Shown piece by piece: positions 1-36,222 of a stretch of 64,000 nucleotides of DNA. Positions within the stretch are counted from its first letter, which is position 1; every line of letters begins with the position of its first letter. The DNA lies in assembly GCA_003600225.1 (NCBI GenBank), contig QZFT01000028.1:1-64000 (forward strand). Direction: 5' to 3'. The stretch is from Pseudonocardiaceae bacterium YIM PH 21723. GTDB taxonomy: Bacteria; Actinomycetota; Actinomycetes; Mycobacteriales; Pseudonocardiaceae. A model generated the notes under the pieces. That model was not told where the DNA came from. It made no database searches and saw only the letters and a program-made list of their open reading frames with translations. Made by a program: the position numbers and the translations under genes.

Positions 1-20
1 TGTTCGACTAAAATGGGGGC

Positions 21-1160
21 ATGGAACAAGTCCTGACCCCCAGATCCGTGGCCGGTAAATACCGGTTCGCGGCGATGGTGATGGCCGACTTCTTCCAGGA
101 CCTGCACGGGCTGCTGTCGACCTCCTCGGACTTCGATTCCGATCGGGAGGAGACCCGGGTCGAGATGGCCGTCAGCACCGCCGAGATCAGCCAGTTCGCC
201 GCGCTCGCCCAAGCACTGCACGAGAAACTGCCCTGCACGCAAGAAGCCCTCGCGGCCGGTGGGATCGACGTCAAAAAAGCCCAGATGCTGCACAGCCTCA
301 CCAAACCCCTCGATGCTGAGTTGGCGGGGTTGGTGGAGGAGAGGGTGCTTCCTACCGCGCATGAACTGTCGAACTCAGAGATGCGTGCACTTGGGGAGCG
401 GTACATCCAGGAACTCGACCCGCACGGCGCACAGGAAAGACATGAGCGTCGCAAGAAGGACCGGTCGTTCACCGTGACCAGCAAACCCGATGGGATGGGT
501 GAGCTCCGGTTGTATTCGACTGCTCCGGAGGTGCAGGCCGCGTATCAGGCGATTGATCAGCAGGTCCGCAATACGCGTGCGAAGGATGATGAGCGCACAC
601 AGGATCAGGCTCGTGCCGATCTGGCCGCCGCTGTGCTCGCCGCCGGTGGAGCGGGGTCTGAGGGTTTCGCGCCGGTGGATCCGAAGATCGTGATCACGAT
701 CCCCAAAGACGTGATCGAGGGCAAACAAGAACACGGCGCCGAGATGCAAGGCCACGGAGCGATCCCCGGGTCGATGGCACGGCAGAAGGCGGCGACCGCG
801 TCGGTGTGGTTGCGCATGATCACCGATCCGATGACCGGTGTGGGGATCGACTTCTCCCGCAAGGGATATCGACTCAGCCAGGCCGAGCGGAACTTCCTGA
901 TCACCCGCCACAAGACATGCCGGTTCCCGAATTGCCAGGCTCCGGCGGTGACCGCGGATCTGGATCATCGGACGCAGTACCAGCACAGCCGGGTCACTCG
1001 GGGCCGGGACATGGCGCCGCTGTGTCGCAGGCACCACATCCTCAAAGACCAGCACCACTGGGGCTACGAGATCCTGCCCAACGGTGACCTGCTGTGGACC
1101 TCCCCGAGGGGAACCAAGATCTTGGTCCGGATGGACCCGGGAGCCGATCCAGATGGTTAG
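21..1160 (+). CDS. DUF222 / HNH endonuclease (13E12-repeat-like family), copy 1
   Basis: A 379-aa protein with an N-terminal helical DUF222-type region (about residues 1-250) and a C-terminal HNH nuclease module: CRFPNC at about 310, then DLDH, then PLCRRHH at about 345, giving the Cys pair and the H-N-H metal/catalytic residues. Families of this architecture are multicopy in mycobacteria and relatives (REP13E12). The ATG at 21 lies behind a purine-rich GGGGGC. A copy with the same length and about 90% identical residues is encoded on the other strand at 34986-36125. The first 20 bases of the window match the bases before the start of that copy with one mismatch. The biological role of these nucleases is not settled; a selfish or mobile element nuclease is an inference from the repeats around it. 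Confidence 0.9.
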   Translation: MEQVLTPRSVAGKYRFAAMVMADFFQDLHGLLSTSSDFDSDREETRVEMAVSTAEISQFAALAQALHEKLPCTQEALAAGGIDVKKAQMLHSLTKPLDAELAGLVEERVLPTAHELSNSEMRALGERYIQELDPHGAQERHERRKKDRSFTVTSKPDGMGELRLYSTAPEVQAAYQAIDQQVRNTRAKDDERTQDQARADLAAAVLAAGGAGSEGFAPVDPKIVITIPKDVIEGKQEHGAEMQGHGAIPGSMARQKAATASVWLRMITDPMTGVGIDFSRKGYRLSQAERNFLITRHKTCRFPNCQAPAVTADLDHRTQYQHSRVTRGRDMAPLCRRHHILKDQHHWGYEILPNGDLLWTSPRGTKILVRMDPGADPDG

Positions 1161-1176
1161 CGGAGCAGGCCCAGTA

Positions 1177-1354
1177 GGGCGGTGGGGCGGGCGCGCCCCC
1201 TAGAGGGCAGGCCCCAGCCTGCCCTTCATCTGCCCGTTTTTGCGCCAGAGGCTCACGGGTCAAGGGTCGCCCGAAGGGCGATCCGGCGAAGCCGGACGCG
1301 AAGCGCCCTTGAGGCGTGAGTGGGCGCAAATAAACTGCGCCCGCCCCACCGCCC
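1177..1354 (+). repeat. 178-bp element with 18-bp terminal inverted repeats (copy 1)
   Basis: It starts with GGGCGGTGGGGCGGGCGC (1177-1194) and ends with the exact reverse complement (1337-1354). Inside are further nested dyads: TTTGCGCC/GGGCGCAAA, CTCACG/CGTGAG and TCAAGGG/CCCTTGA, so the whole element can fold on itself. It begins 16 bp after the stop of the HNH gene. The same element, also 178 bp and in the same orientation and spacing relative to its nuclease gene, lies at 34792-34969. A diverged 184-bp relative is at 36223-36406. The structure is MITE-like. No target-site duplication is visible. Confidence 0.85.
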
Positions 1355-1376
1355 CATATCAGTGGCCGAGTGATGC

Positions 1377-1505
1377 CTACCCCCGAAAAAAGCACCACTC
1401 GGCCACCCGGGTGACCACGGCGATCAGGTGGACGAACGTCATTCGCACCGGTTCCGACCCGAACACCAGCACGGCGACGAGCAGGGCCACGAATAGCGCA
1501 TTCAC
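1377..1505 (-). CDS. Small single-pass membrane protein (42 aa), hypothetical
   Basis: The GTG start at 1505 follows GGGGGA by 3 bases. The product is 42 aa: a hydrophobic run (ALFVALLVAVLVFG) near the N-terminus, then a second amphipathic stretch ending in WCFFRG. The frame stays open further upstream, but the hydrophobic domain and the purine run favour this internal start. It sits between the repeat element and the AfsR-like regulator and is transcribed away from the regulator. I do not recognise the family. It could be a chance ORF. Confidence 0.4.
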   Translation of the reverse strand: MNALFVALLVAVLVFGSEPVRMTFVHLIAVVTRVAEWCFFRG

Positions 1506-1634
1506 TATTCCCCCACATCCGCCACAACGCCCCCGTCGCGGAGCCCCGAGCTCCGCGACGACCACCTGATCCTCCCCCTGCCTGGCCACCATGGCACCAG
1601 TCTGCCGAGGACCGATGAACATTGGGTGCAACAA

Positions 1635-1831
1635 CTGTTGAATCCGCAGGTCAGCGCGTTATTTTCGGTTTACACCATCGCATGGGAAATTCCTATGAAA
1701 TAGGTTTACCAGGCGCTTTCCCCGGCCTGCGGAGAATCGGAGTTTCCCGATTTACAACACGAGGTTGAGCCGATTAGCGGGTAGCCGATACATTGCCCCT
1801 TCCGCATGGGGCTTTACTGGGCGAGGGTCGT
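1635..1831 (+). promoter_or_regulatory. AT-richer intergenic promoter region with several dyads
   Basis: About 200 bp without a gene, clearly richer in A/T than its surroundings. It carries CAAC-aact-GTTG near 1630-1642, CCTAT-gaa-ATAGG at 1692-1704 and AATCGG-agtttc-CCGATT at 1735-1752. These are candidate operators or promoter elements for the AfsR-like gene that starts at 1832 and for the small divergent membrane ORF. Confidence 0.4.
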
Positions 1832-4666
1832 ATGAACGTCACGTTCGCCGTCCTGGGGGACATCGAGATCCGCCACCGCGGCGGATCAACCGACGCCGGG
1901 CACCACCGACAACGGTGTGTGCTCGCCGCGATGCTGGCCGACGTCAACCGGACGGTCTCCACCGAGCAGTTGATCGACCGGGTGTGGGCGGACCGGCCAC
2001 CGCAACGCGCCCGCCGCACGCTCGCCGCCTACGCCTGCCGGCTGCGGCCACTGCTGATCGACACCGGTGCCTCGATCCTCGGCGGGCACCACGGATACCG
2101 CCTGGTCACCGAACCGCTGAGTATCGACGCGCACCTGTTCGCCGACCTGGTCCGGCAGGCCCGCCGGCAGAACCGGGACCGACAGGCCCTGCAGTTGTTC
2201 GACCAGGCCCTGGAACTGTGGCAGGGCGAGCCGTACCAGGGGGCGAACACCCCGTGGTTCAACCCGATCCGCGAGGCGCTGCTGCGCGACCGGGTCCAGG
2301 CGGAGCGGGACCGGACCGACGTGGCCCTGCGGCTGGACCAGCACACCGTCCTGTTACCCGGGCTCGGCGCGGCCGCCGACCGGCATCCGCTGGACGAACG
2401 GCTCGCCGGGCAGCTCATGCTCGCCCTGTACCGCGACGGCAGGCAGGCCGACGCGTTGCAGCACTACGACCGGGTACGGCACCGGCTGTCCGACGAGCTC
2501 GGCACCGACCCGTCGGCCGAACTGCGCACCCTGTTCCAGCGCATGCTGGCCGCCGACCCGGACCTGCTCCCCCGGCTGCCGGTGATCAGCGCGCACGCCG
2601 ACACACCGGTGCCCCGGCAGCTTCCGCCGCCGCCCGCCCACCTGGTCGGCCGGGACCGGGATCTGGCCGAGCTGACCGCGATCGCCGAGCGGGAGACCGG
2701 CAGCGTGCGGATCGCCGCGCTGGGCGGGCCGGGCGGCAGCGGCAAGACCTGGCTGGCGCTGCGCTGGGCGCATGATCACCTGGACAGGTTCCCCGACGGC
2801 CAGCTCTACGTGAACCTGCGTGGCTTCGGGCCGGACAACGACCCGATGACCCCCGATTCGGCGCTGCAGGTCTTCTTCGACGCGCTCGGGGTGCCCACCG
2901 ACCAGATCCCCTGCACCCTCGACGGCCGGTCCGCGCTGGCCCGCAGCCTGCTGGCCGGGCGGCGGATGCTGGTGCTGCTGGACAACGCGGCCGACGCCGC
3001 CCAGGTGCGGCCGCTGTTGCCGTCCACCCCTGGCTGCCTGGTGCTGATCACCAGTCGCAGCGCGATGTCCGGACTGGCCATCGAGGACGGCGCCACCGAG
3101 ATCCGGGTCAGCCTGCTGACCGATGTGCAGTCCAGGGAACTCTTGGAAGGCCGGATCGGCCCGGACCGGCTCGCCGCGGAGCCGGACGCGGTCGGCGAAC
3201 TCATCCGGTACTGCGCCGGGCTGCCGCTGGCCCTCGCGGTGCTCGCCTCCCGGGCCGCCGCACGTCCCGACCACGACCTGCGGGTACTCGCCGACGCGCT
3301 CGCCGACCAGCGACTGCGGCTCAACGTGCTGGACGCGGGTGACCCGGCGACCACCGTGCGGGCCGTGTTCTCCTGGTCCTACCAGGTGCTCCCGCACGAC
3401 GCGGCGCGGCTGTTCCGGCTGCTGGGCCTGCATCCCGGACCGAGCTTCGACCTGTATGCCGCGGCCTCCCTGCTCGCGGGCTCGACCTGCCGCTCGCAGA
3501 CCCTGCTGACCGAGCTGGTGCGCGCTCACCTCGTCGAGGAGCTCGCGCCCGGCGTGTACCGGATGCACGACCTGCTGCGGGCCTACGCCATGGAGCTGGC
3601 CGGCGAGTTCGACGCGACCGAGCACCACACGGCGATCTCCCGGCTGCTGGACCACTACCTGTTCACCGGGCACGCCGCCGACCAGCTGATCTGCCCGATG
3701 TGGGAGGCGATCGGGCTGGCCCTGCCGGAGCCGGGCACCGCGTCCCGCCCGCTCGCCGACTTCGAGGAGGCGATGAGCTGGTTCCTGGAACAGCATTCGA
3801 CCCTGCTGGCGATGGTCCGGCTGGCCGAGGCCGAACGCTTCCACGCCCACGCCTGGCGGCTGCCGTGGATCATGAGCACCTACCTGGGACGCCGGGCGCA
3901 CTGGCATGTGCAGCGGGTCATCCAGCAGATCGCGCTCACGGCGGCCGGCGTCCTCGGCGACACGATGGCGCAGGCCGCCAGCCACTACCAGCTCGGCCAC
4001 ACGTACACGATGCAACGCGCCTACCGCTCCGGTCAGCCGCACCTGAACCGGGCGAACGACCTCTACCACCGGATGGGCGACCTCACCGGTCAGGCCGCGA
4101 CCTGCGTCGCACTGGCGATGTCCGCCTACCGTCAGGGCCACTACGGCCAGGCGGAGAACCTGGCAAACCAGGGCCTGGTGTTGTTCCGCGCGCGGGGCAA
4201 GAACCGGTGGGGCGGGCAGTGCCTGATGCTGCTCGGCTGGATCCACGCCCAGGACGGCCAGCACGAACTGTCCCTGTCCTACAGCGAGAGCGCGTTGAAG
4301 CTCCTGCTGCAACTGCCGCTCTCCGAGGCGCAGGCGCAGACCATGCGGTGCCTGGGTTTCGTGCACGCCAAACAGGGCGATCTGCCGCTGGCGGCCTCCT
4401 ACTACACCCGGGCGGCGCTGGTATTCGAGATGCTCGGCGACTCCTACAACCGCGCATCCGTCCTGCAGGAACTCGGCGACGTACACGCCCAGGACGGCGA
4501 TCAGCAGGCGGCGCACGCAGCGTTCACTGCGTCCGAACAGCTGTTCGCCCGGCTCGCCCGACCGGAATCCGGACAGGTGCGGGAGAAGCTGGCCGTCCTG
4601 GAGAACCACCAGCCACGCCTGGCTGTGCTGCGCCGACTGCCCGATGTGCGGAATCAGCTCGCCTGA
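1832..4666 (+). CDS. AfsR/SARP-type regulator with BTAD, NB-ARC and TPR domains
   Basis: A 944-aa protein. The N-terminal winged helix (about 1-95) and BTAD domain (about 100-245) are typical of SARP activators of antibiotic clusters. A STAND-type NB-ARC ATPase follows (Walker A GGPGGSGKT at about 297, Walker B VLLDNA at about 378, GLPLAL at about 460), with a TPR-rich C-terminus (about 690-930). The ATG at 1832 is chosen because GGGCGAGGG lies just upstream and the conserved winged-helix start (NVTFAVLGDIE) follows. Proteins of this kind sense a signal through the TPR/ATPase part and bind direct repeats in target promoters. It stands alone: no biosynthetic gene cluster is adjacent, so a pleiotropic role is plausible. 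Confidence 0.93.
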   Translation: MNVTFAVLGDIEIRHRGGSTDAGHHRQRCVLAAMLADVNRTVSTEQLIDRVWADRPPQRARRTLAAYACRLRPLLIDTGASILGGHHGYRLVTEPLSIDAHLFADLVRQARRQNRDRQALQLFDQALELWQGEPYQGANTPWFNPIREALLRDRVQAERDRTDVALRLDQHTVLLPGLGAAADRHPLDERLAGQLMLALYRDGRQADALQHYDRVRHRLSDELGTDPSAELRTLFQRMLAADPDLLPRLPVISAHADTPVPRQLPPPPAHLVGRDRDLAELTAIAERETGSVRIAALGGPGGSGKTWLALRWAHDHLDRFPDGQLYVNLRGFGPDNDPMTPDSALQVFFDALGVPTDQIPCTLDGRSALARSLLAGRRMLVLLDNAADAAQVRPLLPSTPGCLVLITSRSAMSGLAIEDGATEIRVSLLTDVQSRELLEGRIGPDRLAAEPDAVGELIRYCAGLPLALAVLASRAAARPDHDLRVLADALADQRLRLNVLDAGDPATTVRAVFSWSYQVLPHDAARLFRLLGLHPGPSFDLYAAASLLAGSTCRSQTLLTELVRAHLVEELAPGVYRMHDLLRAYAMELAGEFDATEHHTAISRLLDHYLFTGHAADQLICPMWEAIGLALPEPGTASRPLADFEEAMSWFLEQHSTLLAMVRLAEAERFHAHAWRLPWIMSTYLGRRAHWHVQRVIQQIALTAAGVLGDTMAQAASHYQLGHTYTMQRAYRSGQPHLNRANDLYHRMGDLTGQAATCVALAMSAYRQGHYGQAENLANQGLVLFRARGKNRWGGQCLMLLGWIHAQDGQHELSLSYSESALKLLLQLPLSEAQAQTMRCLGFVHAKQGDLPLAASYYTRAALVFEMLGDSYNRASVLQELGDVHAQDGDQQAAHAAFTASEQLFARLARPESGQVREKLAVLENHQPRLAVLRRLPDVRNQLA

Positions 4667-4778
4667 ACTCGTCACCACATAACGCACGCGACTCGGCCGA
4701 TCGAGTGGTCACCCCGGCCCGTCGCGGCGGAATTACCGATACGATGGTGAATTCCGGCTCGCCCAGAGGTGATTCTCC

Positions 4779-5171
4779 ATGGCCCAGTCCATGAAAGCCG
4801 AACTCTTCGCCGGGCGTGGCTGCGGATCGCTGTCCATCTCCGCGACCAGCCAGGGTGATTCCGTCGTCGTGCACGCCAGCGGCGAGGTAGACCTGTGCTC
4901 GGTACCGCTGCTGGACTGGTCTCTCCGGGAGGCCAGCACGCTCAGTACCGCACCCGCCCCGATCGTGGTCGACCTGTCCGAGGTCGGCTTCCTGAACAGC
5001 AGCGGGATCAACGTCCTGCTGAAACACGTGGTGCACTGCCGTGAACTCGGAACCCCGCTGCGGGTGGTCGCGGCCAGCCGGGCGGTGCGCAGGCCGATCG
5101 AGCTGCTCGGCCTCGGCATCATGCTGCCGGTGTTCGCCACCGTGCGGGCGGCGGTCCGCCGGGCGGCATAG
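4779..5171 (+). CDS. STAS-domain anti-sigma factor antagonist
   Basis: A 130-aa protein whose residues about 20-125 match the STAS fold of SpoIIAA/RsbV-type antagonists. The phosphorylation loop is FLNSSGIN at about 71-78, where the kinase/anti-sigma partner would modify the serine. HASGEVDL and VVDLSEV are the expected strands. The unphosphorylated form normally binds an anti-sigma factor and frees a sigma factor. No anti-sigma or sigma gene is adjacent. An imperfect dyad, GGAATT-ACC / GGT-g-AATTCC (4729-4755), lies just upstream. Confidence 0.85.
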   Translation: MAQSMKAELFAGRGCGSLSISATSQGDSVVVHASGEVDLCSVPLLDWSLREASTLSTAPAPIVVDLSEVGFLNSSGINVLLKHVVHCRELGTPLRVVAASRAVRRPIELLGLGIMLPVFATVRAAVRRAA

Positions 5172-5199
5172 GGCATGACACCTGGCAGGTCTGCGAATA

Positions 5200-5229
5200 G
5201 GGTCAGGGGGCGAAACAGCCCCCTCACCC
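5200..5229 (+). terminator. Hairpin between STAS gene and carboxypeptidase gene
   Basis: GGGT-c-AGGGGGC, loop gaaaca, GCCCCCT-c-ACCC: a strong GC stem with one C-C mismatch, 28 bp after the STAS stop and 13 bp before the carboxypeptidase start. There is no T-run, so it could be a terminator or a translation-blocking leader stem. Confidence 0.55.
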
Positions 5230-5242
5230 TGCAGAGGTACGT

Positions 5243-6577
5243 ATGTCACTTCGCCGAACGTTGACCCTCCTGAGCGCCACGGTGCTCACCGCGGCCGTCG
5301 GGCTGAGCCTGCCCTCCGCCCAGGCGGACCCGGCGCAGCTGTTCGAGTACGCCGTGGACGCCCCCAGCACCGAGCACCAGCAGCAGTTGTTGCAGAAGTT
5401 CGACGTGCTCGAGGACCGGGACGGCAACACCCTGTACGTGCTGGGCAACCGGTCCACCGCCACCGAACTGGGCCGCGCGGGCTTCACGCCCACCGTGCAC
5501 CGGGAACTCAAGCCGATCACCGGCGCCAAGCCCAGCACCCGGCTGGTCCCGGGTGCCCCGCAGCCCGCCGATCCGATCGACGAGACCTTCTACGGCGGGT
5601 ACCACACCGTCAACGCGCACTACGCGCACCTGGACAAGGTCGCCAAGGAGCACCCGGAGCTGGCCACCCCGGTCGTCTACGGCAAGTCCTACCTGAAGAC
5701 GAAGAACCCGGCCGCCGGCTACGACCTGCGGGCCATCTGCCTGACCAAGAAGCAGACCGGCGACTGCGCGCTGAACCCGAACTCGGCCAAGCCGCGGTTC
5801 GTGATGGACACCCAGATCCACGCGCGCGAGCTGGGCGCGGGGGACATGTCCTGGCGCTACCTGGACCACCTGGTCAACGGCTACGGCAAGGACGCCGCGA
5901 TCACCACACTGCTGGACACCACCGAGGTGTGGCTGATCCCGATCGTCAACCCGGACGGCGTGGACTACGTCCAGCAGGGCGGCGCGAACATGGGCCAGCG
6001 GAAGAACCGGGACGCGGAGAACGGATCCTGCGCCGGAGCGACCGTCGGCATCGACCTGAACCGGAACTGGGGCTTCAAGTGGGGCCAGGGCGGCTCGTCC
6101 TCCAGCCCGTGCAACGACGGCTACATGGGCCCGCGCGCGGACAGCGAGCCGGAGACCCAGGCGATGCAGAAACTGTACACGCAGCTGTTCCCGGTCAAGG
6201 GCAACGACGGCACCGCCGCGGTGGGCGATGTGCGTGGCCTGGCGTTCTCCATCCACTCCACGATGGGCGCGCACATGTTCCCGCCCGGCTGGGACACCAG
6301 CAACGGCCCCGACTTCGGGCCGCTGAACCGGATCGCCGGGAAGATGGCCTCCTACACCGGCTACAAGTACGGCCCGATCGGCAAGACCATCTACGTGGCG
6401 ACCGGGTCCACTTTGGACTGGGCGTACGGCAAGCTGGGCGTGGCCGGTTTCGTGACGGAGCTGAAGAGCTGCGGCTCGTTCAACCCGCCGTACTCCTGCC
6501 AGGCCGGTGACTGGGCTGCCAACCTGCCCACCTTCATGTACCTGGCGAGCGTCGCCGCCCACCCGTATCAGCAGTAG
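5243..6577 (+). CDS. Secreted zinc carboxypeptidase, M14 family
   Basis: A 444-aa precursor. A Sec signal peptide (about 1-28, ending SAQADP) is followed by an N-terminal propeptide-like part and the M14 catalytic domain. The zinc motif is HARE at about 193-196 (HxxE) with the third ligand in SIHST at about 336. Substrate and catalytic positions are seen in DLNRNWGFKW and in VTELK, whose Glu at about 405 is the catalytic base. These enzymes remove C-terminal residues from peptides outside the cell. The ATG at 5243 follows AGAGGT. Its 3' end overlaps the convergent LysR gene by 10 bp. Confidence 0.92.
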   Translation: MSLRRTLTLLSATVLTAAVGLSLPSAQADPAQLFEYAVDAPSTEHQQQLLQKFDVLEDRDGNTLYVLGNRSTATELGRAGFTPTVHRELKPITGAKPSTRLVPGAPQPADPIDETFYGGYHTVNAHYAHLDKVAKEHPELATPVVYGKSYLKTKNPAAGYDLRAICLTKKQTGDCALNPNSAKPRFVMDTQIHARELGAGDMSWRYLDHLVNGYGKDAAITTLLDTTEVWLIPIVNPDGVDYVQQGGANMGQRKNRDAENGSCAGATVGIDLNRNWGFKWGQGGSSSSPCNDGYMGPRADSEPETQAMQKLYTQLFPVKGNDGTAAVGDVRGLAFSIHSTMGAHMFPPGWDTSNGPDFGPLNRIAGKMASYTGYKYGPIGKTIYVATGSTLDWAYGKLGVAGFVTELKSCGSFNPPYSCQAGDWAANLPTFMYLASVAAHPYQQ

Positions 6578-8039: not shown

Positions 8040-8161
8040 GCCATCAATACTCAGCGCCCCGAGGCACCCCCGGAAAGATCACCACCCCGATCACTGTTAT
8101 CCCCATCCACGATGACCACTTTCCATAGAATGTGCCCCTCAAACCACGACGACGTAGTGAA

Positions 8162-8191
8162 CGGGAGCAGTTTCCATGGAAACTGCTCCCG
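8162..8191. promoter_or_regulatory. Perfect 30-bp palindrome upstream of DUF559 gene
   Basis: The 15-base arm CGGGAGCAGTTTCCA is followed directly by its exact reverse complement. It lies between the divergent cupin (start 8039) and DUF559 (start 8254) genes. A related imperfect site, ACTTTCCATAGAATGT, is at 8118-8133, and a sister palindrome follows the DUF559 gene at 9107-9130. An operator for an autoregulating DNA-binding protein is the most economical reading. Confidence 0.7.
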
Positions 8192-8253: not shown

Positions 8254-9102
8254 ATGCTGACAACCATTCCCGAGGTGTTCATCGGATCCGAGCTGGTAGA
8301 GGCGGGGCTCCTCGGCCGAGGGCAGCTCCGGAGCTCGGAATTCCGCCGGCTGATCCACGGGGTGTACTGCCGTGCCGACCTGCCCCGCAGCCATGAACTG
8401 AAGTGCCGTGCCATGGCGCTCGTCGCGCCGCCGGAAGCCGTACTCACCGGGAGGTCGGCGGCGACTATCCGCGGAGCGGATCTGGCGAAGGAATCCGACC
8501 GAGTACAAATGATCGTGACGAAACATCGTCCCAGCATCCGCAGGGACAGCGAGGCCTGGTCCGTTCGCATACACGACAGTGAATGCGAACCATGGAATCA
8601 AATTCGAATCGCAACACCGGAACGAACCGCATTCGACCTACTCAGGCGAAAGCCCTTGCGTATGGCCATAGCGGACACCGACGTGCTGGTGCGGACTGGG
8701 GTAACGTCCAAAACCACCATCGAGAGGTATCTACAAGACTGTGAGCACCTCGGTTCCGGACATGCGCGTTACGCACTTGGTCTGGTCGATCCCCGAGCCG
8801 AATCCCGCCCAGAGTCCGAGCTGAGGGTGGTGTTCTGGGTCGCAGGTCTGCGCCCAATACCCCAGTGGAACCTGTGGCACAACGGAGTGTTCGTCGGCCG
8901 GATCGATCTGGCATTCCCGGAAGAGCGACTGGCCGTCGAATACGAGGGAGCCTGGCATGGGGAACCTATGCAGTTCAGATCGGATGAGCGGCGCCGAGAC
9001 GCGATTCGCGCTGCGGGCTGGACCGTGCTGGTGATCACTGCCGAACAGCTATATCAATCCCCGGAAACCATCGTTCCAGTCGTGCAGAGCCTGCTTTCCT
9101 GA
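8254..9102 (+). CDS. AbiEi-like / DUF559 endonuclease-domain protein
   Basis: A 282-aa protein. The N-terminal half resembles the winged-helix/antitoxin region of AbiEi-type proteins (a stretch around FRRLIHGVYCRAD). The C-terminal part is a DUF559/Vsr-like PD-(D/E)XK nuclease fold: ESELR, then FVGRIDLAFPEERLAVEYEG, then RRDAIRAAGWTVLVIT. The ATG at 8254 is preferred over an in-frame ATG at 8176 because the latter overlaps the palindrome; GGGAGA precedes 8254. The base composition is lower in GC than the neighbours, with many A-ending codons, which suggests transfer. No AbiEii toxin partner is adjacent. It could be a solitary regulator, a nuclease or a defence remnant. Confidence 0.8.
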   Translation: MLTTIPEVFIGSELVEAGLLGRGQLRSSEFRRLIHGVYCRADLPRSHELKCRAMALVAPPEAVLTGRSAATIRGADLAKESDRVQMIVTKHRPSIRRDSEAWSVRIHDSECEPWNQIRIATPERTAFDLLRRKPLRMAIADTDVLVRTGVTSKTTIERYLQDCEHLGSGHARYALGLVDPRAESRPESELRVVFWVAGLRPIPQWNLWHNGVFVGRIDLAFPEERLAVEYEGAWHGEPMQFRSDERRRDAIRAAGWTVLVITAEQLYQSPETIVPVVQSLLS

Positions 9103-9106
9103 CCGG

Positions 9107-9130
9107 GAACAGTTTCCATGGAATCTGTTC
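9107..9130. promoter_or_regulatory. Imperfect palindrome GAACAG-TTTCCATGGAA-type downstream of DUF559 gene
   Basis: GAACAGTTTCCA followed by TGGAATCTGTTC: 11 of 12 base pairs match around the same TTTCCATGGAA core as the 8162-8191 palindrome. It lies 4 bp after the DUF559 stop and overlaps the last codons of the convergent LuxR gene. It may act as a bidirectional terminator stem or as a second binding site. Confidence 0.6.
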
Positions 9131-28948: not shown

Positions 28949-29615
28949 AGAGCGCGACCGCCCGGGTCCCGACCTTCAGCGACTCGCGGGCCCGGCGCCG
29001 GGCGGGCACCTTGCGACCCCGGGCGACCACGGCGACCACCGCACGGGGAGCGGAGGCGAACACCGCGTCCAGCAGGGCGTCCACATCGGATTGTCCCCGC
29101 CAGTGCACCTGTTCGCCGTAGGGCAGATCGGTGAGCACGATGTCCGCGTCCCCGGAGAGCCCGGTAAAGGCGTCCCGTATTTCCACAGTGGACGGAATGT
29201 CGGCGGGCAGCGAGGTGAGCAGCCGGTCGGCGGCGGCGACGGCGAGCCGATGGGACTCCTTGCCGAACCGGCCGGCCAATTCCACCAGCTCGGCGCGGCG
29301 GGCGAGCAACCCGTCCCGGCTCAGCAGGGCCAGGTTCTGCCGGGCGACGGCCACCGCGTCGGCCTCGACGTCGGCGGCCAGCACGGCGGCGATGCGTTCC
29401 GGGTGCAGCAGGCCGAGCGCGGTCAGCAGGTAACCGCTGCCGCAGAGCGGATCGGCCAGCACCACGCGGTCCAGGCCGCGGAGCGCGAGGGCCCGCTGGA
29501 ACACCTCGGTGGCCAGCCGGACCGGGAAGGCCGGCAGACCGGGTGCCGAGCGAAGCACCGATCCGCTGGCGAGATCCTCGTGATTCTCCCGCTCCACCGC
29601 GAACCGATACGCCAC
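28935..29615 (-). CDS. AviRa-like 23S rRNA methyltransferase
   Basis: A 226-aa SAM-dependent methyltransferase. The N-terminus (ASGSVLRSAPGLPAFPVRLA), DPLCGSGYLLTALGLLHPER, VLTDLPYGEQVHW and the C-terminal LKVGTRAV stretch correspond closely to AviRa of Streptomyces viridochromogenes as I recall it. AviRa methylates a 23S rRNA guanine and gives avilamycin resistance. DLPYGE replaces the NPPY catalytic-type motif. It overlaps the P450 gene by 14 bp, tail to tail. Whether it confers resistance here is inference. Confidence 0.82.
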   Translation of the reverse strand: MAYRFAVERENHEDLASGSVLRSAPGLPAFPVRLATEVFQRALALRGLDRVVLADPLCGSGYLLTALGLLHPERIAAVLAADVEADAVAVARQNLALLSRDGLLARRAELVELAGRFGKESHRLAVAAADRLLTSLPADIPSTVEIRDAFTGLSGDADIVLTDLPYGEQVHWRGQSDVDALLDAVFASAPRAVVAVVARGRKVPARRRARESLKVGTRAVALFTAE

Positions 29616-29637
29616 CCGGCGACCCTACCGCCGGGTG

Positions 29638-29799
29638 CTACCAGCGGTACCAGCGACTGCCCGCGGTGCTGCCCCGGAAGACGAATCCGAGCAGCCAGAT
29701 GACGAGCACGGCGATGGCGATGTACCAGAACACGGACTGTGCGAAACCCAGTCCGCCGAACAGCAGTGCCAGTAACAGCACGGCGATGATGATCGGCAT
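29638..29799 (-). CDS. Small hydrophobic protein (53 aa, Lmo0937-like)
   Basis: Two hydrophobic segments (IIIAVLLLALLFGGLGFA and WYIAIAVLVIWLLGFVF) followed by a short basic, aromatic tail. ATG 29799 is preceded by GAGGAGG at ideal spacing. This matches a small membrane protein family common in Gram-positives, often stress-linked, with unknown function. It is immediately upstream of the AviRa-like gene on the same strand (22 bp). Confidence 0.8.
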   Translation of the reverse strand: MPIIIAVLLLALLFGGLGFAQSVFWYIAIAVLVIWLLGFVFRGSTAGSRWYRW

Positions 29800-29986
29800 G
29801 TGGTGCCTCCTCACTAGGCGTCCACACCGGATACCCGGCGATCCCGGACCGGGCTAGGCCGGCCGGAGGCATTGGCACACTCAGGCCGATCGGACGAACC
29901 CGCCGGAAACTGCCGGGCCGAGGCGGGTTTGACCGGCCACCAATGGGTATTCGGAATGAGTCGTCCCCGCGTTGGTAGGAGCGCGC

Positions 29987-30268
29987 ATGCTGAGCCAATA
30001 CGAACGCCGCCAGTTACAGGACATCGAGCAGCACCTGACGGAAGAGGCCCCGAAGCTGGCCGCCGCCCTCGCCAGCGGCCGGATCACCCACCTCCGATGG
30101 TGGTGGGCGCTGCTGTGCGGACTGGGTCTGCTGATGTTCCTCACCGGCCTGGTCACCGCGAGTGCCCTGCTCGCCTTCGGTGGGCTGGGCACCTGTCTCG
30201 TCGCGCTGCTGGCGCTGTGGACGACGCACACGCCGGGAGCGCGGACACGGAAGGACACCCATGAGTAA
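29987..30268 (+). CDS. DUF3040 membrane protein
   Basis: A 93-aa protein with N-terminal LSQYERRQLQDIEQHLTEE, then a segment LAAAL with two transmembrane helices (about 38-80). This is the DUF3040 pattern of actinomycetes, function unknown. The ATG at 29987 follows TAGGAG. Its stop overlaps the next gene by 8 bp, so the two are co-translated. Confidence 0.85.
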   Translation: MLSQYERRQLQDIEQHLTEEAPKLAAALASGRITHLRWWWALLCGLGLLMFLTGLVTASALLAFGGLGTCLVALLALWTTHTPGARTRKDTHE

Positions 30269-30500
30269 GAACGACGAACTGAGCAGACAGGCCGAGATGC
30301 AGATGGCCGCGCTGCGCAAGGACCTGGACGCGGTGAGCGAGAAGGTGCAGCGGCTGAGCAAGGACGTCAAGTACGGCGGCCGGGGTAACCGGCGCCGGGA
30401 GCAGGGCCGCAAGGTGGTCACCGCCGGAGCGGCGCTGCTCGGCATGCTCGGCGCCGGTGCGTTGGCCCTTCGTTCGCGGCGCACCGGAGATCACAGTTGA
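30261..30500 (+). CDS. Small coiled-coil membrane protein, hypothetical
   Basis: A 79-aa protein. The N-terminal charged heptad-like region (about 5-40) is a probable coiled coil, followed by a Gly/Arg linker and one C-terminal membrane segment (about 52-70). The family is not identified. It overlaps the DUF3040 gene, suggesting a small envelope complex. Confidence 0.7.
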   Translation: MSKNDELSRQAEMQMAALRKDLDAVSEKVQRLSKDVKYGGRGNRRREQGRKVVTAGAALLGMLGAGALALRSRRTGDHS

Positions 30501-30530
30501 CCATTGCGGCAGGCGGGATAGGGTCGGACC

Positions 30531-30896
30531 GTGGTCGGTAGCAACGATGAATCCATTGCCCTACTCGCTGAGATGATCGGACATGACGCCGTCGTGCGGG
30601 TGTCCGGTGAGATCGACCTGGCCACCGTGGAACCACTGCGGGACTACCTGAACGCCGCGATCGACGTGGTGGTCCCGCCCGGCCGGGTGATCGTGGACCT
30701 GAACGGGGTCGAGTTCTTCAGCTCGGCCGGAATCGGTGAACTGGTCACCGCGCGCAACGCCTGCATCGAGCAGGCGACGCCGCTCATCCTGGTCGCCGAA
30801 CAACCGGTGGTGCTCCGCCCGATGGAAACCACCGGCCTCGCCCGGATGTTCGACATCCGTTCGAGTGGTGGAGCTATACCAGAACAGGCCCTCTGA
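30531..30896 (+). CDS. STAS-domain anti-sigma factor antagonist
   Basis: A 121-aa STAS protein: VRVSGEIDLATVE, VIVDLNGVEFFSSAGIGEL with the phosphorylatable Ser at about 64-65. The GTG at 30531 starts the gene. It is a second antagonist in the window, not closely similar to the one at 4779. No cognate anti-sigma gene is adjacent. Confidence 0.87.
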   Translation: MVGSNDESIALLAEMIGHDAVVRVSGEIDLATVEPLRDYLNAAIDVVVPPGRVIVDLNGVEFFSSAGIGELVTARNACIEQATPLILVAEQPVVLRPMETTGLARMFDIRSSGGAIPEQAL

Positions 30897-30930
30897 TTGA
30901 CGTAGCGACACGCCGGGTATTCCATGAAGT

Positions 30931-31725
30931 ATGAGCCCGATCTGGCGAGGCGCGATTTCGTTCGGTTTGGTCAACATCGCGGTGCGCTTGCACACCGCGA
31001 CCGAAGAGCACGACTTCCACTTTCACCAGATACACCGGGATGACAACGGTCGTATCCGTTACAAACGTGTGTGCGAAGAATGCGGCAAGACCGTGCAGCA
31101 GGCCGATATCGTCAAGGGCTATCCCCTCGACGACGGCTCCATGATCACGCTGGAGCCGACGGACTTCGAGGAGCTGCCGGTCAGCACGGACAAGTCCATC
31201 GAGGTGCTGGAGTTCGTCCCGGTCGCCGAGGTGGATCCCATCTATTTCCAGCGCACTTACTATCTGGAGCCGGACAAGGCGGCGATTCGCCCATACGTGT
31301 TGCTGCGCGAAACGCTGCGGAATTCCGACCGGCTCGGCGTCGTGCGCATCACCATCCGCCAGCGCGAGCAGCTGGCCGTCCTGCGGGTGCGGGACGAGGT
31401 CATCGCACTGCACACGATGCTGTGGCCGGACGAGATCCGCACGGCCCGGTTCGACGTGCTGCGGGACGCCGAGGATCCGCGCAAGAACGAGCTGACGATG
31501 GCGGGCACGCTGGTCGAGAACATGGCCGGCGAGTTCCATCCGGATGAGCACACCGACGAGTACCGCGAGGCCCTGGGCAGGCTGATCGAGGCCAAGGCGG
31601 CAGGCAAGAAGGCCCCGGCCAGGACACCCCGGCGCAAACCCGCCGAACCCGCCGACCTGGCCGACGCGTTGCAACGCAGCGTGGAGGCGACGAAGAAGCC
31701 GGGCCGACGGAAGAAGACCGCCTGA
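30931..31725 (+). CDS. ku: Non-homologous end-joining protein Ku
   Basis: A 264-aa bacterial Ku: MSPIWRGAISFGLVNIAV at the N-terminus, a core beta-barrel with a CEEC-type cysteine pair (VCEECGK), and a Lys-rich C-terminal tail (KKAPARTPRRK). It forms a homodimeric ring on DNA ends and recruits LigD. Its last base overlaps the start of the LigD-polymerase gene (TGATG), so the two are translationally coupled. Confidence 0.96.
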   Translation: MSPIWRGAISFGLVNIAVRLHTATEEHDFHFHQIHRDDNGRIRYKRVCEECGKTVQQADIVKGYPLDDGSMITLEPTDFEELPVSTDKSIEVLEFVPVAEVDPIYFQRTYYLEPDKAAIRPYVLLRETLRNSDRLGVVRITIRQREQLAVLRVRDEVIALHTMLWPDEIRTARFDVLRDAEDPRKNELTMAGTLVENMAGEFHPDEHTDEYREALGRLIEAKAAGKKAPARTPRRKPAEPADLADALQRSVEATKKPGRRKKTA

Positions 31726-32630
31726 TGCGTACCAGGATCGACCTGGACGGCCGGATAGTGCGGCTGTCCAACCAGGACAAGGAGCTGTACCCCGGCTTCA
31801 CCAAGGGTCAGGTGGTCGACTACTACGTCGAACTGGCCCCGGTGCTGTTGCCGCACCTGGCGAACCGTCCGGTCACCCTGCGCAGGTGGCCGGACGGCGT
31901 CAGCGGCCCCTCCTTCTTCGAGAAGAACCTCTCCCGGTCCGCCCCGGACTGGGTGGAGTCGGTGCGGATCGCGACCCCGGGCAGCACCAAGGACCGGGAG
32001 TACGCCGACTTCCTGCTGATCTCCGACGCGGCGACGCTGGCCTGGGCGGCGAACCTGGCAGCCCTGGAACTGCACATTCCGCAGTGGACGGTCGGCGCTC
32101 GGGGCGCCCGCAAACTGCCGGACCTGCTCGTGTTCGACCTCGATCCGGGACCGGGAACCTCCATTGTGGAGTGTTGCCGGGTGGCGGAGCTGATCGGCGA
32201 GCACCTCGGGGAACACGGACTCACCGGTTACCCGAAGACCAGTGGCAGCAAGGGAATGCAGCTGTACGTGCCGATCCGGGTGTCCACCTGGGAACGACCC
32301 GCGGACTACGCGAAACGGCTGGCCGAGCGGCTCACCGCGGAGCATCCCCGGTCGATCACCGCGACCATGTCCCGCAGTGCGCGCGACGGCAAGGTGTTCA
32401 TCGACTGGAGCCAGAACAACGGCAAGAAGACCACCATCGCGCCGTACTCACTGCGCGGGCGGGAACAGCCCAGCGCCTCCACCCCGATCACCTGGGACGA
32501 GGTCCGCGCCTGCGCTGCACCAGAGGATCTGGTGTTCGGGCCGGAGGACGTACTGAAGCGGGTCTCCGCCGACGGTGACCTGCTGGCCGACCTGCACGAC
32601 CACCCGGAGACGCTCCCCCGGTCGGCCTGA
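31725..32630 (+). CDS. ligD: LigD-type primase-polymerase domain protein (NHEJ)
   Basis: A 301-aa stand-alone PolDom of the archaeo-eukaryotic primase superfamily. VFDLDPGPG supplies the catalytic Asp pair at about 137-139, and GKVFIDWSQN, TTIAPYSLRG and TSGSKGMQLYVP are conserved. In the last of these, Gln stands where I recall a His in the Mycobacterium enzyme. No ligase or phosphoesterase domain is attached, so a separate ATP-dependent ligase must exist elsewhere. It adds nucleotides at breaks together with Ku. Confidence 0.93.
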   Translation: MRTRIDLDGRIVRLSNQDKELYPGFTKGQVVDYYVELAPVLLPHLANRPVTLRRWPDGVSGPSFFEKNLSRSAPDWVESVRIATPGSTKDREYADFLLISDAATLAWAANLAALELHIPQWTVGARGARKLPDLLVFDLDPGPGTSIVECCRVAELIGEHLGEHGLTGYPKTSGSKGMQLYVPIRVSTWERPADYAKRLAERLTAEHPRSITATMSRSARDGKVFIDWSQNNGKKTTIAPYSLRGREQPSASTPITWDEVRACAAPEDLVFGPEDVLKRVSADGDLLADLHDHPETLPRSA

Positions 32631-32691
32631 CGGGCGTACCGCCCACGATGCCGTTATTTTTGCCGCAGGCATCGGACTGGAGGGAGCCACG

Positions 32692-33141
32692 ATGGGCGCA
32701 TCGGGCTGGGATTACTACGTCGACTACACCCCCGATCCCCGGGAAGCTCTGCTCATCGCGCAACTGCGGGAACTGGCCGGGGGCACGTTCTACTGGCCTG
32801 GCCCGGGGTTGCCGCGGCCGACCAACCTGGCGGAGTTGCGCGCCTACTACCAGGACGAGTCCAACGAGTGGCTGATGGAGGGAACGCACTCCATCCTGGA
32901 CATCTTCATGGTCATGCCCGCCGGATCACCGGACGACTTCGGCACGATCCTGCCGTTGCCCGCAGATCGGGTTCGGGCGGTGTTCGGGACGGACACGCCC
33001 ACCCGGGAACAGTTCGAAGCCGCCCATCAGGGTGGCGCGCATGATCTCGACGAGTTCCCTCGGTGGAGTGGGCGGTTCACCACCCTCTACGAGAACGGGG
33101 TTCCGGCCGAGATCGCCATCTGGGGTATCTCCGGCGACTGA
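32692..33141 (+). CDS. Conserved actinobacterial hypothetical protein
   Basis: A 149-aa soluble protein beginning GASGWDYYVDYTPDPREALL. I recognise the Trp-Gly/Tyr-Tyr-Val opening as common to a family of actinobacterial proteins of unknown function that occur singly in many genomes. The ATG at 32692 follows GGAGGGAG. No catalytic motif is seen. Confidence 0.72.
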   Translation: MGASGWDYYVDYTPDPREALLIAQLRELAGGTFYWPGPGLPRPTNLAELRAYYQDESNEWLMEGTHSILDIFMVMPAGSPDDFGTILPLPADRVRAVFGTDTPTREQFEAAHQGGAHDLDEFPRWSGRFTTLYENGVPAEIAIWGISGD

Positions 33142-33229
33142 TCAGCCGGTCCGCTGCGACCGGACGAACAGGAACACCGGTTTCATGTTCAGTACCTCGA
33201 ACATCCGTGGGCCGGCGTCGGTGCCTCCA
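33142..33229 (-). pseudogene. Possible C-terminal gene remnant
   Basis: On the minus strand the last 21 codons before a stop at 33142 read like a protein C-terminus (MFEVLNMKPVFLFVRSQR), while the same frame upstream runs antisense through the EspG gene without credible coding. This could be a remnant of a degraded gene or chance. Confidence 0.2.
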
Positions 33230-33925
33230 TTACCTGATGTTGGCGAGTTCCATGATCTTCGCGGCCAGCAGCTGCGGGGTGGCGGGCGCGGCGATGATCC
33301 AGTTGTCCACGTTGCGGTAGTGCAGCCAGCGGCCCTCGGTGGAGTCCAGGTAGTCCAGGCCGAACGGGGCGATGCGTCTGCGGCCGGCCGAGTCCCGGAT
33401 CGCCGCGTGCAGTTCACCGCCACCGGACCGGGGCAGGCCGAGGATCCGGTTCAGCTCTTTGAGCTGGAGCTTTCCGGTGTCCTGCTGGTCGTGGGCGGAC
33501 AGCGTGACGCTGGGTCCGTGCGCCGGGTGCAGTTCCGGCAGCTGCGCGATGAGCGTGTCCACCAGGTTGTCCGCGCTGGCCGGGCCGAGGAACACCCGGT
33601 CGCCGTCACGCAGCAGCAGCGCGCCCACCCGGTTGCGGCTGGCGGTGAGCACCGCGTACCCGCCGCGCGCGGTGGTGATCCGGCCGTAGTACTCCCGGTC
33701 GGCGGCGGAGATGATGTGCAGCGCGTGCAGCAGGTCCGGGTCCGGTTCACCGTCCGGCAACAGGCCGAAGTTGCCCAGTTCGCCATAGGCCAGCTGGCGG
33801 GCATCCTGCTCGTTCTCGTCCGGGGACAGCAGGTCCTCGAGCACCGGGTGCGGCTCCCCGAGTCCGAACGCCCGGATGAGGGTGAGCACAGTGGACAGTG
33901 ACAGGTTGACCTGCGCACGCAGCAT
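33230..33925 (-). CDS. EspG-family ESX secretion-associated protein
   Basis: A 231-aa protein. The opening strand-helix (LSLSTVLTLIRAFGLGEPHPVL), the central YGRITTARGGYAVLTASRNRVGALLLRDGD and the C-terminal RWLHYRNVDNWIIAAPATP fit EspG-type chaperones, which in mycobacteria bind PE-PPE substrates of type VII secretion. The ATG at 33925 follows GGGAGG. No ESX core gene is near; orphan EspG paralogues are common in Pseudonocardiales. Confidence 0.75.
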   Translation of the reverse strand: MLRAQVNLSLSTVLTLIRAFGLGEPHPVLEDLLSPDENEQDARQLAYGELGNFGLLPDGEPDPDLLHALHIISAADREYYGRITTARGGYAVLTASRNRVGALLLRDGDRVFLGPASADNLVDTLIAQLPELHPAHGPSVTLSAHDQQDTGKLQLKELNRILGLPRSGGGELHAAIRDSAGRRRIAPFGLDYLDSTEGRWLHYRNVDNWIIAAPATPQLLAAKIMELANIR

Positions 33926-33967
33926 TCCAGAGCCTCCCACGGGGAAAAACGTAACGTAGCAGTCCGG

Positions 33968-34756
33968 TCACCCCATGTGCCGGGATATCTCGGTGATCAT
34001 TGCCGCCGAACGGGCGGTATCCAGCGACAGTCGGGCGAGCGCGGTGAACCCCTGGCGGCAGTCCGCCGGGTGGCCCATGTCCGGCAGGCAGGGCGCGTCC
34101 ACCCGGGTCGGCGTACCCAGTGGGCCGTCGAGCAGGCTGAACGGTCCGTGCATCGCGGGGTGGCCGCCGGTTTCCAGGGGCAGCACCCTGATCGAGATAC
34201 CCGGTTCACCGCCCCGGCGGAGCAACGCCGCCAGCTGGTCGCGCATCACCGCCGCGCCACCGGTCCTGACCCGCAGTACCGGCTCCCAGATCACCACGTC
34301 CAGCGACAGCCCCGGCAGCCGTCGTTGCCGGGCCCGATGCAGGTCCGGATCCCACCGCTCCCCCAGCAGGGCCTGCGCGTAGGCCTCCGTCCGCAGCAGG
34401 CCGGGGATCAGCGTCGGTGCCCAGATCCGGGCCCGCCGGGCCTCCGATTCGGCCTCCAGGTACCTGGCCAGCTCCGGCTCGTACCGCTCGTACCACCCGG
34501 TCTCCCCCGCGGTCGCGGCCAGCCGGAGCACCTCCGTCCGCCGGGCACCGCCATCCTCGCCGTACAGCCCCAGCAGGAACTCCAGCTCAGCCTGGCGGGG
34601 TGTGCCCTCCCCGGACTCGATCCTTGCGACCTTCCGCCGCTCGAACCCCAGTCTGCGGCCCGCTTCACGCTGGCTCAGTCCGGCTTTGACGCGTAGGGCC
34701 CGTAGCTCGGATCCGAGCCTGCGGCGGCGGGAGTTGGGTGGGCGTTCCGGGTTCAT
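33968..34756 (-). CDS. XRE-family regulator with DUF5753 domain
   Basis: A 262-aa protein. The N-terminal helix-turn-helix (LRVKAGLSQREAGRRLGFER, about 20-45) is followed by DUF5753 (about 85-255), with typical WAPTLIPGLLRTEAYAQALL. Such regulators often pair with DUF397 proteins in Streptomyces and relatives. No DUF397 gene is adjacent here. It lies between EspG and the second nuclease/element unit. Confidence 0.9.
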   Translation of the reverse strand: MNPERPPNSRRRRLGSELRALRVKAGLSQREAGRRLGFERRKVARIESGEGTPRQAELEFLLGLYGEDGGARRTEVLRLAATAGETGWYERYEPELARYLEAESEARRARIWAPTLIPGLLRTEAYAQALLGERWDPDLHRARQRRLPGLSLDVVIWEPVLRVRTGGAAVMRDQLAALLRRGGEPGISIRVLPLETGGHPAMHGPFSLLDGPLGTPTRVDAPCLPDMGHPADCRQGFTALARLSLDTARSAAMITEISRHMG

Positions 34757-34791
34757 CGCGGGCTTCCTTTGTTAATGGAGAGTGGGTCTCG

Positions 34792-34969
34792 GGGCGGTGG
34801 GGCGGGCGCATGATATTTGCGCCCACTCACGCCTCAAGGGCGCCTGCGGCGTCCGCTTCGCGGATCGCCCTTCGGGCGACCCTTGACCCGTGAGCCTCTG
34901 GCGCAAAAACGGGCAGATGAAGGGCAGGCTGGGGCCTGCCCTCTAGGGGGCGCGCCCGCCCCACCGCCC
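34792..34969 (-). repeat. 178-bp terminal-inverted-repeat element (copy 2)
   Basis: Exactly the same length as copy 1, with 18-bp perfect terminal inverted repeats (34792-34809 and 34952-34969). It is in the same orientation relative to the DUF222-HNH gene and the same 16-bp distance from its stop. The interior is slightly diverged, for example around the tip of the inner stem. Homology to copy 1 stops at the terminal repeat. Confidence 0.85.
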
Positions 34970-34985
34970 CACCCGGCGCACTCCG

Positions 34986-36125
34986 CTAACCATCCGGATC
35001 AGCCCCCGGATCCATCCGCACCAGGAACCTCGCCCCACTCGGGCTTGTCCACGCAAGATCACCATTCGGCAGGATCTCGTAGCCCCACCCATGTTCCTCT
35101 TTGAGGATGTGGTGCCTGCGACACAGCGGTGCCATGTCCCAGCCTCGGGTGACCTTGCAATGTCGGTACTGCTCCCGATGATCCAGATCCGCGGTCACCG
35201 CCGGAGCCTGGCAATTCGGGAAGCGGCACGTTTTGTGGCGGGTGATCAAGAAGTTCCGCTCCGCCTGACTGAGCCGATATCCCTTGCGGGAGAAATCGAT
35301 CCCCACACCGGTGATCGGATCGGTGATCATCCGCAACCACACCGACGCGGTGGCCGCCTTTTGCCGGGCCATCGATCCCAGGATGGCGCCGTATCCCTGC
35401 ATCTCGGCGCCGTGTTCTTGCTTGCCCTCGATCACATCCTTCGGGATGGTGATCACGATCTTCGGATCCACCGGCGTAAACCCCTCAGATCCCGCACCAC
35501 CGGCCGCGAGCACGGCAGCCGCGAGGTCAGCGCGAGCCTGATCCTGCGTTCGCTCATCATCTTTCGCACGCGTATTGCGGACCTGCTGATCGATCGCCTG
35601 ATACGCCGCCTGAACCTCGGGTGCGGTGGAGTACAGGCGCAGCTCACCCATGCCGTCGGGTTTACTGGTCACGGTGAACGAGCGGTCCTTCTTGCGACGC
35701 TCGTGTCGCTGTTGCGCGCCGTGTGGATCAAGCTCTTGGATGTACCGCTCCCCAAGAGCACGCATCTCCGAATTCGAGAGTTCATGCGCGGTGGGCAGAA
35801 CCTTCTCCTCCACCAACCCCGCCAACTCAGCATCAAGGGGTTTGGTGAGGGAGTGCAGCATCTGCGCTTTCGCGAGATCGATCCCACCCGAGGCAAGGGC
35901 CTCCTGCGTGCACGGCAACTTCACGTGCAGCGCCTCGGCCAGCGCGATGAAATGGCGGATCTGAGCCGAACTGACCGTCATCTCGACCCGGGTCTCTTCC
36001 CGATCCGAATCACAGTCCAACGAGGTCGACAGCAACCCGTGCAGGTCCTGGAAGAAGTCGGCCATCGCCATGGCCGCGTACCGGTATTTACCGGCCACGG
36101 ATTTGGGGGTCAGGACTTGTTCCAT
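34986..36125 (-). CDS. DUF222 / HNH endonuclease, copy 2
   Basis: A 379-aa paralogue of the protein at 21-1160, with about 90% identical residues and no length change. Differences cluster near the N-terminus and around the HNH tip (GWDMAPLCRRHHILKEEHG). CRFPNC, DLDH and CRRHH are intact, so both copies should be active. It is flanked by copy 2 of the element downstream and, 97 bp before its start, by the oppositely oriented copy 3, a composite-like arrangement. Confidence 0.9.
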   Translation of the reverse strand: MEQVLTPKSVAGKYRYAAMAMADFFQDLHGLLSTSLDCDSDREETRVEMTVSSAQIRHFIALAEALHVKLPCTQEALASGGIDLAKAQMLHSLTKPLDAELAGLVEEKVLPTAHELSNSEMRALGERYIQELDPHGAQQRHERRKKDRSFTVTSKPDGMGELRLYSTAPEVQAAYQAIDQQVRNTRAKDDERTQDQARADLAAAVLAAGGAGSEGFTPVDPKIVITIPKDVIEGKQEHGAEMQGYGAILGSMARQKAATASVWLRMITDPITGVGIDFSRKGYRLSQAERNFLITRHKTCRFPNCQAPAVTADLDHREQYRHCKVTRGWDMAPLCRRHHILKEEHGWGYEILPNGDLAWTSPSGARFLVRMDPGADPDG

Positions 36126-36222
36126 GCCTCCATTTTAGTCGAACACCAAAGCGATTTCGAATCACTATCAGGTGATTAATACAAGATCAACTCGCGCCGT
36201 AGGTTACCCATTAGCTAAAAGA

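Follow-up and report, generated by a model that had tools for sequence, protein, structure and literature searches.

The stretch of DNA analysed here (the window) comprises the first 64,000 nt of contig QZFT01000028.1 of the actinomycete Pseudonocardiaceae bacterium YIM PH 21723. It carries two copies of a unit in which the gene for a 379-residue DUF222-HNH nuclease is joined to a structured, palindromic DNA element of about 180 bp. The unit is present 14 times in the genome, the gene lying between two inverted elements in all 13 units for which both sides are assembled. The element itself is a branched hairpin whose pairing has been preserved by compensatory changes. There is good support for both the architecture and the structural conservation. 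The system may be read as a mobile repeat that is structured and has an HNH nuclease of its own, similar in its working to the repetitive extragenic palindromes (REPs) and their REP-associated tyrosine transposases (RAYTs), with an unrelated enzyme in place of the transposase.

Organization of the nuclease–element units

A preliminary description of this sequence had proposed two nucleases of 379 residues with about 90% identity, in inverted orientation, each followed after 16 bp by a collinear element, and this holds for the window. The two window proteins are 91% identical, and the inverted arms (1–1285 and 34861–36145) are 87% complementary. The features of the two units are:

1–20, + strand: final 20 bp of the unit 1 leader; the contig starts too late to include the rest of the leader and any 5′ element
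21–1160, + strand: unit 1 DUF222-HNH nuclease gene, 379 residues (list of open reading frames (ORFs), protein search, Pfam DUF222)
1177–1355, + strand: unit 1 3′ structured element, with an outer stem, a side hairpin, a long stem and three small apical hairpins
1203–1226, + strand: side hairpin (P2) of this element in the predicted fold
1260–1266, + strand: 5′ half of its long-stem core TCAAGGG/CCCTTGA, invariant in 25 copies of this genome
1306–1312, + strand: 3′ half of the same core, the first C nearly invariant
1329–1336, + strand: A-rich segment flanking the outer stem; part of it is predicted to be unpaired
34791–34969, − strand: unit 2 3′ structured element (DNA and covariance-model searches)
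34986–36125, − strand: unit 2 DUF222-HNH nuclease gene, 379 residues (ORF list, protein search, Pfam DUF222)
36126–36223, − strand: unit 2 leader between the gene and the 5′ element, conserved in 13 copies
36224–36406, + strand: unit 2 5′ structured element, inverted with respect to the 3′ element of its unit (covariance model, 148.8 bits)

The unit 1 element scores 198.7 bits with the covariance model, and the fold of 1177–1356 has a z-score of −7.8. The unit 2 5′ element, which had been overlooked when one element was assigned to each nuclease, is 82% identical to it over the matched stretch. The start of the unit had likewise been placed 20 bp before the gene because base 1 of the window is base 1 of the contig; this is an assembly end (the 7.61 Mb genome is in 111 contigs), and the 13 other copies continue into a leader of about 95 bp and an inverted element.

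Nor are the units limited to two. A protein search of the genome gives 14 genes of 379 residues with 87–100% identity, followed by relatives at 50% and 59% (the latter partial) and 28 more distant ones, 44 matches in total. The element is matched 34 times by DNA search and 32 times by the covariance model, two of the latter being weak (E 0.06 and 0.14) and both at expected places. The 32 model matches comprise 27 that flank a gene of the 14-copy family, a complete solo element within contig C96 and four at contig ends (C30, C42, C98 and C82). The idea that nuclease and palindromic element form a unit with defined ends is borne out 14 times; nine copies have the gap of 16 bp between them, two have a gap of 0 bp and the remaining three have gaps of 17, 43 and 69 bp. 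Two 5′ elements carry large internal deletions, and one 3′ element is cut by a contig end. With 14 copies present, many exchanges are possible, and inversion of the 33 kb between the window units, as previously suggested, would be just one.

The solo element on C96 (L028:1499–1681) is 74% identical over the matched stretch, has the same general fold (z −6.8) and lies directly downstream of what is presumably a signal recognition particle RNA gene. A deleted solo copy is found on C41. Many copies stand at contig ends, both in this genome (the four contigs above) and in genomes G007 and G079, and element copy numbers are underestimated because such repeats break assemblies. At one unit (C1:46421–47557) a second copy of the gene end lies between an apparent older element start and the present element, and at two others (C59 and C13) an older arm stands ahead of the 5′ element; unit ends therefore appear to have been replaced over time.

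The element is a conserved branched hairpin

Pair-keeping changes on both sides are seen at 17 of 55 base pairs among 25 copies from the genome itself. The same pairs were assessed in an alignment (A2) built on 57 matches found outside this genome, of which 56 are distinct and four are weak (E 0.027–0.57); here 49 of the 55 have changed on both sides. In this alignment, which was fitted to the covariance model and so favours model-consistent pairing somewhat, 93.1% of cells are paired, compared with 64.3% after shuffling and at most 41.5% when the pairing is slid. A branched hairpin preserved by compensatory change, in excess of both the shuffled and the slid controls, is well supported. When 16 elements of 14 genomes were folded singly, z-scores of about −3.7 to −9.7 were obtained and a common plan was evident: an outer stem and a long inner one, tipped with small hairpins in most elements. 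The side hairpin is variable, being absent or different in the four short elements (G029, G025, G068 and G008) and folded in another way in G007 and G060. The paired core TCAAGG/CCTTGA changes little from genus to genus, and the segment matching the A-rich stretch of unit 1 is ACAAT-like and unpaired in several other genomes.

The loops are equally distinctive. The form C-GNA-G accounts for 107 of the 130 three-base loops found in 78 elements, as against 1–3 of 44–56 in six shuffles; the proportion is 49 of 49 in this genome and 5 of 13 in G089. GNA loops give very stable DNA minihairpins (Hirao 1994; Yoshizawa 1997; as cited in an excerpt of PMC6479982), and the C-GNA-G loops hint that the element acts as folded single-stranded DNA. 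No description of the element was found in the open-licence literature searched.

The nuclease genes are intact, constrained and recombining

Both window proteins match DUF222 in Pfam. The preliminary description had taken intact HNH residues as a sign of maintained activity. The residues, read by eye, are indeed kept in all 14 copies, and two relatives match HNH entries in PHROGs. All 14 genes are open, and the pairwise ratio of non-synonymous to synonymous divergence (dN/dS) has a median of 0.092 (range 0.05–0.14, 91 pairs), so that the genes are under purifying selection and the nuclease looks maintained. The copies also recombine. In one pair (L040 and L044) a run of 113 consecutive polymorphic sites is identical while 115 other sites differ, and this run scores 12995 compared with 4396 for the highest of 200 permutations; 13 copy pairs exceed the 95% permutation threshold, and the share of site pairs found incompatible by the four-gamete test is 47% within 50 bp and climbs to 73% at distances above 300 bp.

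An AlphaFold model of the protein was built from 26 sequences, with a mean predicted local distance difference test (pLDDT) score of 78.6 and a predicted template modelling (pTM) score of 0.55. Sequence matches in the PDB to 'Bagel' and cell-surface chains over residues 345–376 (E 3.9e-8 and weaker) and to the McrA entry 5zmm over residues 279–350 (E 0.34) were given no weight. Defence-system models gave a single weak match, to a type II methyltransferase (E 0.044), and NCBIfam gave none for the nuclease. A single-protein scan of named genomes returned no related protein. Among the homologues drawn from the protein database (13, then 40), in a search that scored only the roughly 8000 candidates sharing most words, no name gave a function beyond HNH or DUF222.

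Two further DUF222 families of the genome deserve mention in their own right. A second multi-copy DUF222-HNH family of about 403 residues (L051, L053–L055, L057 and L059) has a 3′ hairpin of its own, unlike the element of the 14-copy family, with GTCAA/TTGAC arms that show matching changes and downstream z-scores of −2.8 to −9.4 in six members. A third family, of about 394 residues and six copies, shares some 35–58 bp of upstream sequence with members of the 403-residue family (L047 with L054, L055 and L058; L056 with L055 and L058).

Pairing with DUF222-HNH genes in other genera

The element also accompanies DUF222-HNH genes outside this genome. In G007, 25 of 26 element matches adjoin such a gene or a contig-end fragment of one, none being found for C19; as 26 is also the number of candidates scored, this is a lower bound, and not all of the 42 DUF222 matches of that genome have an element. 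In G029, 11 of 12 matches adjoin a DUF222 gene, ten upstream and one downstream of it, and in G079 three of nine do so, the gene side of the other six being lost at contig ends. In all 26 loci measured in these three genera the upstream element lies on the strand opposite the gene. The first possible start codon follows the element by 52–79 bp in G007; in G029 the start is ambiguous. Two HNH groups of G007 that share 28% identity are served by elements that share 95% (6 by 3 loci), and therefore the element has probably been exchanged between nuclease families.

Occurrence of the element

The covariance model finds the element in 23 of 100 genomes of the family (17 of 46 genera) and in 13 of 150 genomes of the order, four other families among them. 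Both figures include the present genome, and both are lower bounds, as the searches scored only the best candidates (26 per genome in the family, 17 in the order). An exact pattern applied to named genomes gave 22 stretches, 14 in Actinophytocola xinjiangensis, six in Nocardia and two in Kineosporia babensis, which belongs to another order. Seven loci in other families and one further locus in the same family have no DUF222 ORF within the 1.8–3.2 kb covered, some of which is cut by contig ends. Full-length elements are carried by two Nocardia plasmids and one Mycobacterium plasmid, with partial matches on three other plasmids. On the two Nocardia plasmids (L312:2994–3177 and L313:2994–3174) the element stands at the same place beside the gene for a PP2C-domain protein, and on a linear Streptomyces plasmid (L315:596–656) its inner core lies in a palindrome-rich stretch about 600 bp from the end.

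Insertion sites

The preliminary description had proposed that the unit may be mobile, and support for this is indirect. For 12 of the 14 units the flanks (about 5 kb per side) are unrelated, except for six matches of about 50 bp. These are dispersed repeats common to the flanks of different units (C1b, C18, C26, C46a, C46b and C59). Sites without a unit or element exist in sister species. A unit of G079 (L198) is flanked by two convergent genes that in the congener G017 are separated by about 50 bp; other ORFs are also present in the additional 3.4 kb, and its left limit is the end of a gene. The stretch that contains a solo element in G089 is about 760 bp long, compared with about 60 bp in G117, a member of the same genus. 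These two comparisons suggest that the unit or element may have been gained or lost. Insertion beside stop codons was seen by eye for several units, an ORF-based count being too rough to use.

Mechanism and alternative explanations

The explanation preferred here, with rather less than even confidence, is that the nuclease recognises and cuts DNA at the folded element and so copies units and solo elements to new places. The element would fold as single-stranded DNA, as its C-GNA-G loops hint; the DUF222-HNH nuclease would bind or cut this fold; and cutting, followed by repair or strand transfer, would move or convert copies. Elements in genomes without DUF222 genes could then be leftovers of a lost nuclease, or may be served by another enzyme.

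A number of observations weigh against this explanation. The strongest concern the genomes that have the element and no DUF222 gene, which number five (G089, G025, G117, G009 and G017) of the 12 element-bearing genomes searched. Elements scattered widely with no HNH association had been named beforehand as a pattern that would refute the proposed unit, and the outcome is divided. In the genome itself this pattern is confined to the one complete contig-internal solo and the deleted one; in other genomes, the five included, it does occur. The 22 pattern stretches contain no DUF222 ORF, although the element is near the stretch edge in some. Conversely, none of 16 other DUF222 genes tested in this genome has an inverted element pair, nine chosen DUF222-HNH loci gave no model match (six in G007 and one each in G079, G116 and G002), and a downstream mirror copy is seen outside this genome at one of 26 loci, in G029. 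With regard to mobility, no target-site duplication was detected at 12 units, where the longest shared word averages 4.25 nt in true pairs and 3.95 nt in mismatched ones. None of the site comparisons removes exactly one unit, so that no clean empty site is available, and in G030 the stretch matching the G089 solo site is about 1.2 kb, longer and unrelated. The copies are old, with a median synonymous divergence (dS) of 0.64. For the protein, Pfam gives no HNH match in the window copies, only DUF222, and the predicted model has no fold match in the PDB at E 0.001. Lastly, G-U pairs are in excess on the strand opposite the element strand (318 of 5085, compared with 170 of 4934 on the element strand), which a DNA hairpin does not predict.

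An alternative is homing or gene drive, in which the nuclease cuts differing alleles or paralogues and repair converts them, the hairpins being only regulatory or protective ends. The strong recombination signal between dispersed copies and the strong purifying selection would suit such a process, and REP13E12 loci of M. tuberculosis are gene-conversion hotspots (PMC13061034) and are annotated HNH/DUF222 (PMC10589994). Allelic homing leaves unexplained the unrelated flanks of the 12 units compared, the presence of the same element beside distant HNH groups and the solo elements, and it is regarded as unlikely.

Improbable to a similar degree is an independent repeat, autonomous or resembling a miniature inverted-repeat transposable element (MITE), that is moved by some other enzyme and for which DUF222-HNH genes are merely a tolerated neighbourhood. 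This would account for multi-copy elements in DUF222-free genomes, for the exchangeability of element and HNH family and for the plasmid-borne elements, as the four plasmid regions examined contain no annotated DUF222 gene. An independent repeat is harder to reconcile with the constant side and orientation of the element at the HNH genes, both in the 26 loci of the three other genera and in the units described here. Nor is another enzyme apparent: the Y1 transposase domain (PF01797) is absent from all nine element-bearing genomes searched and present in 5 of 14 control genomes, and the solo elements examined have no consistent partner gene, with the loci of G089 covered in part and ORF calls rough.

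That the element is instead a non-coding RNA working with the HNH protein, for example as a scaffold or guide in the manner of the omega RNA of IscB, is thought very unlikely. Compensatory changes and a position just upstream of an HNH gene would suit a structured RNA, and the strand richer in G-U pairs is the gene strand for upstream elements. This asymmetry does not separate RNA from DNA; it leans away from an RNA on the element strand only. The C-GNA-G loops fit DNA hairpins better, and RNA folding energy shows no strand preference, 42 of 78 elements having the lower value on the element strand. Rfam release 15 gives no match in nine loci of this genome (E up to 1) or in seven elsewhere (gathering threshold), and the protein offers only DUF222 in Pfam and no related solved fold. 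Least probable of all is that a host gene with terminator-like hairpins was duplicated vertically long ago, and that the copies never moved and have stayed similar through recombination: the age and intactness of all copies and the lack of target-site duplications would agree with this, against which stand the unrelated flanks, the solo and internally deleted elements, the apparent older element start with repeated gene end at one unit, and the absence of a family gene at E 1e-60 from 59 other genomes, none of which is listed as the same genus.

With action of the nuclease on the element as the preferred explanation, a broader proposal can be put forward, though it must be considered doubtful: that these units represent a new class of mobile DNA, in which branched single-stranded hairpins with C-GNA-G loops, similar to telomeres or parvovirus ends, are mobilised by HNH (DUF222) nucleases both in cis and in trans. 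If true, this would be an HNH counterpart, spread over actinomycetes, to the world of HUH enzymes (REP/RAYT, IS200/IS605), and it would give a function to the 13E12 repeat family. If the nuclease does act on the element, folded DNA would be moved without an HUH enzyme. Many of these genomes hold several copies of DUF222 genes, and a structured element at their constant side is a concrete candidate substrate. Even otherwise, a structured element that is unmatched in Rfam and occurs in 23 of 100 genomes of a family merits annotation.

Other repeats in the window

Three further repeats were noted in the window. At 54803–57897 a sequence of about 746 bp recurs in tandem, matching consecutive ORFs of about 249 residues and forming a tandem gene family. 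A 31-bp sequence with a palindromic, operator-like centre occurs twice, 942 bp apart (8158–8188 and 9100–9130), and a 33-bp pair, 88% alike, is separated by 1781 bp (45917–45949 and 47698–47730).

Comparison with known systems

It is with free-standing HNH homing endonuclease genes that selfish spread by cutting and repair is associated, which would fit the recombination signal; they differ from the present units, which are dispersed to unrelated sites and have a dedicated flanking element. The MITEs of DDE insertion sequences are similarly short, non-coding, multi-copy and bounded by inverted repeats, whereas here target-site duplications are lacking and structure is conserved more than sequence. 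IscB is an HNH nuclease with a RuvC-like domain that adjoins a conserved folded omega RNA, and the HEARO arrangement of IscB and omega RNA thus resembles the present one in placing an HNH nuclease beside a conserved folded element. The ends of IS200/IS605 elements are recognised as secondary structures on single strands, according to an excerpt of PMC6006769. The present system differs from both in that the 16 loci have no Rfam match, the protein has only DUF222 in Pfam and the nine genomes have no Y1 transposase.

A further system for comparison is REP13E12, which consists of multi-copy HNH/DUF222 loci that undergo gene conversion. In the available portions of the sources, the M. tuberculosis loci are gene-conversion hotspots and REP13E12 serves as a prophage attachment site (PMC13061034), and the loci are annotated HNH/DUF222 (PMC10589994). 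The multi-copy DUF222 protein with an HNH motif is present here too. The difference lies in the position of the gene between two inverted structured elements, although such elements were not searched for at REP13E12 loci.

The nearest system in logic is REP/REPIN-RAYT, in which palindromic repeats stand beside a presumed mobilising nuclease gene and also occur as solo copies (part of PMC3116915), as do the repeats flanking the nuclease gene here. The partner in the present case is a DUF222-HNH gene in 14 copies, whereas RAYTs are described in that part of the source as single-copy, and a Y1 transposase is absent from all nine genomes. The elements are branched and about 130–200 bp long, compared with 20–40 bp for REPs (given in an extract of PMC3733652). 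With PF01797 found in none of the nine genomes, the present system is not a member of the REP/REPIN-RAYT group.

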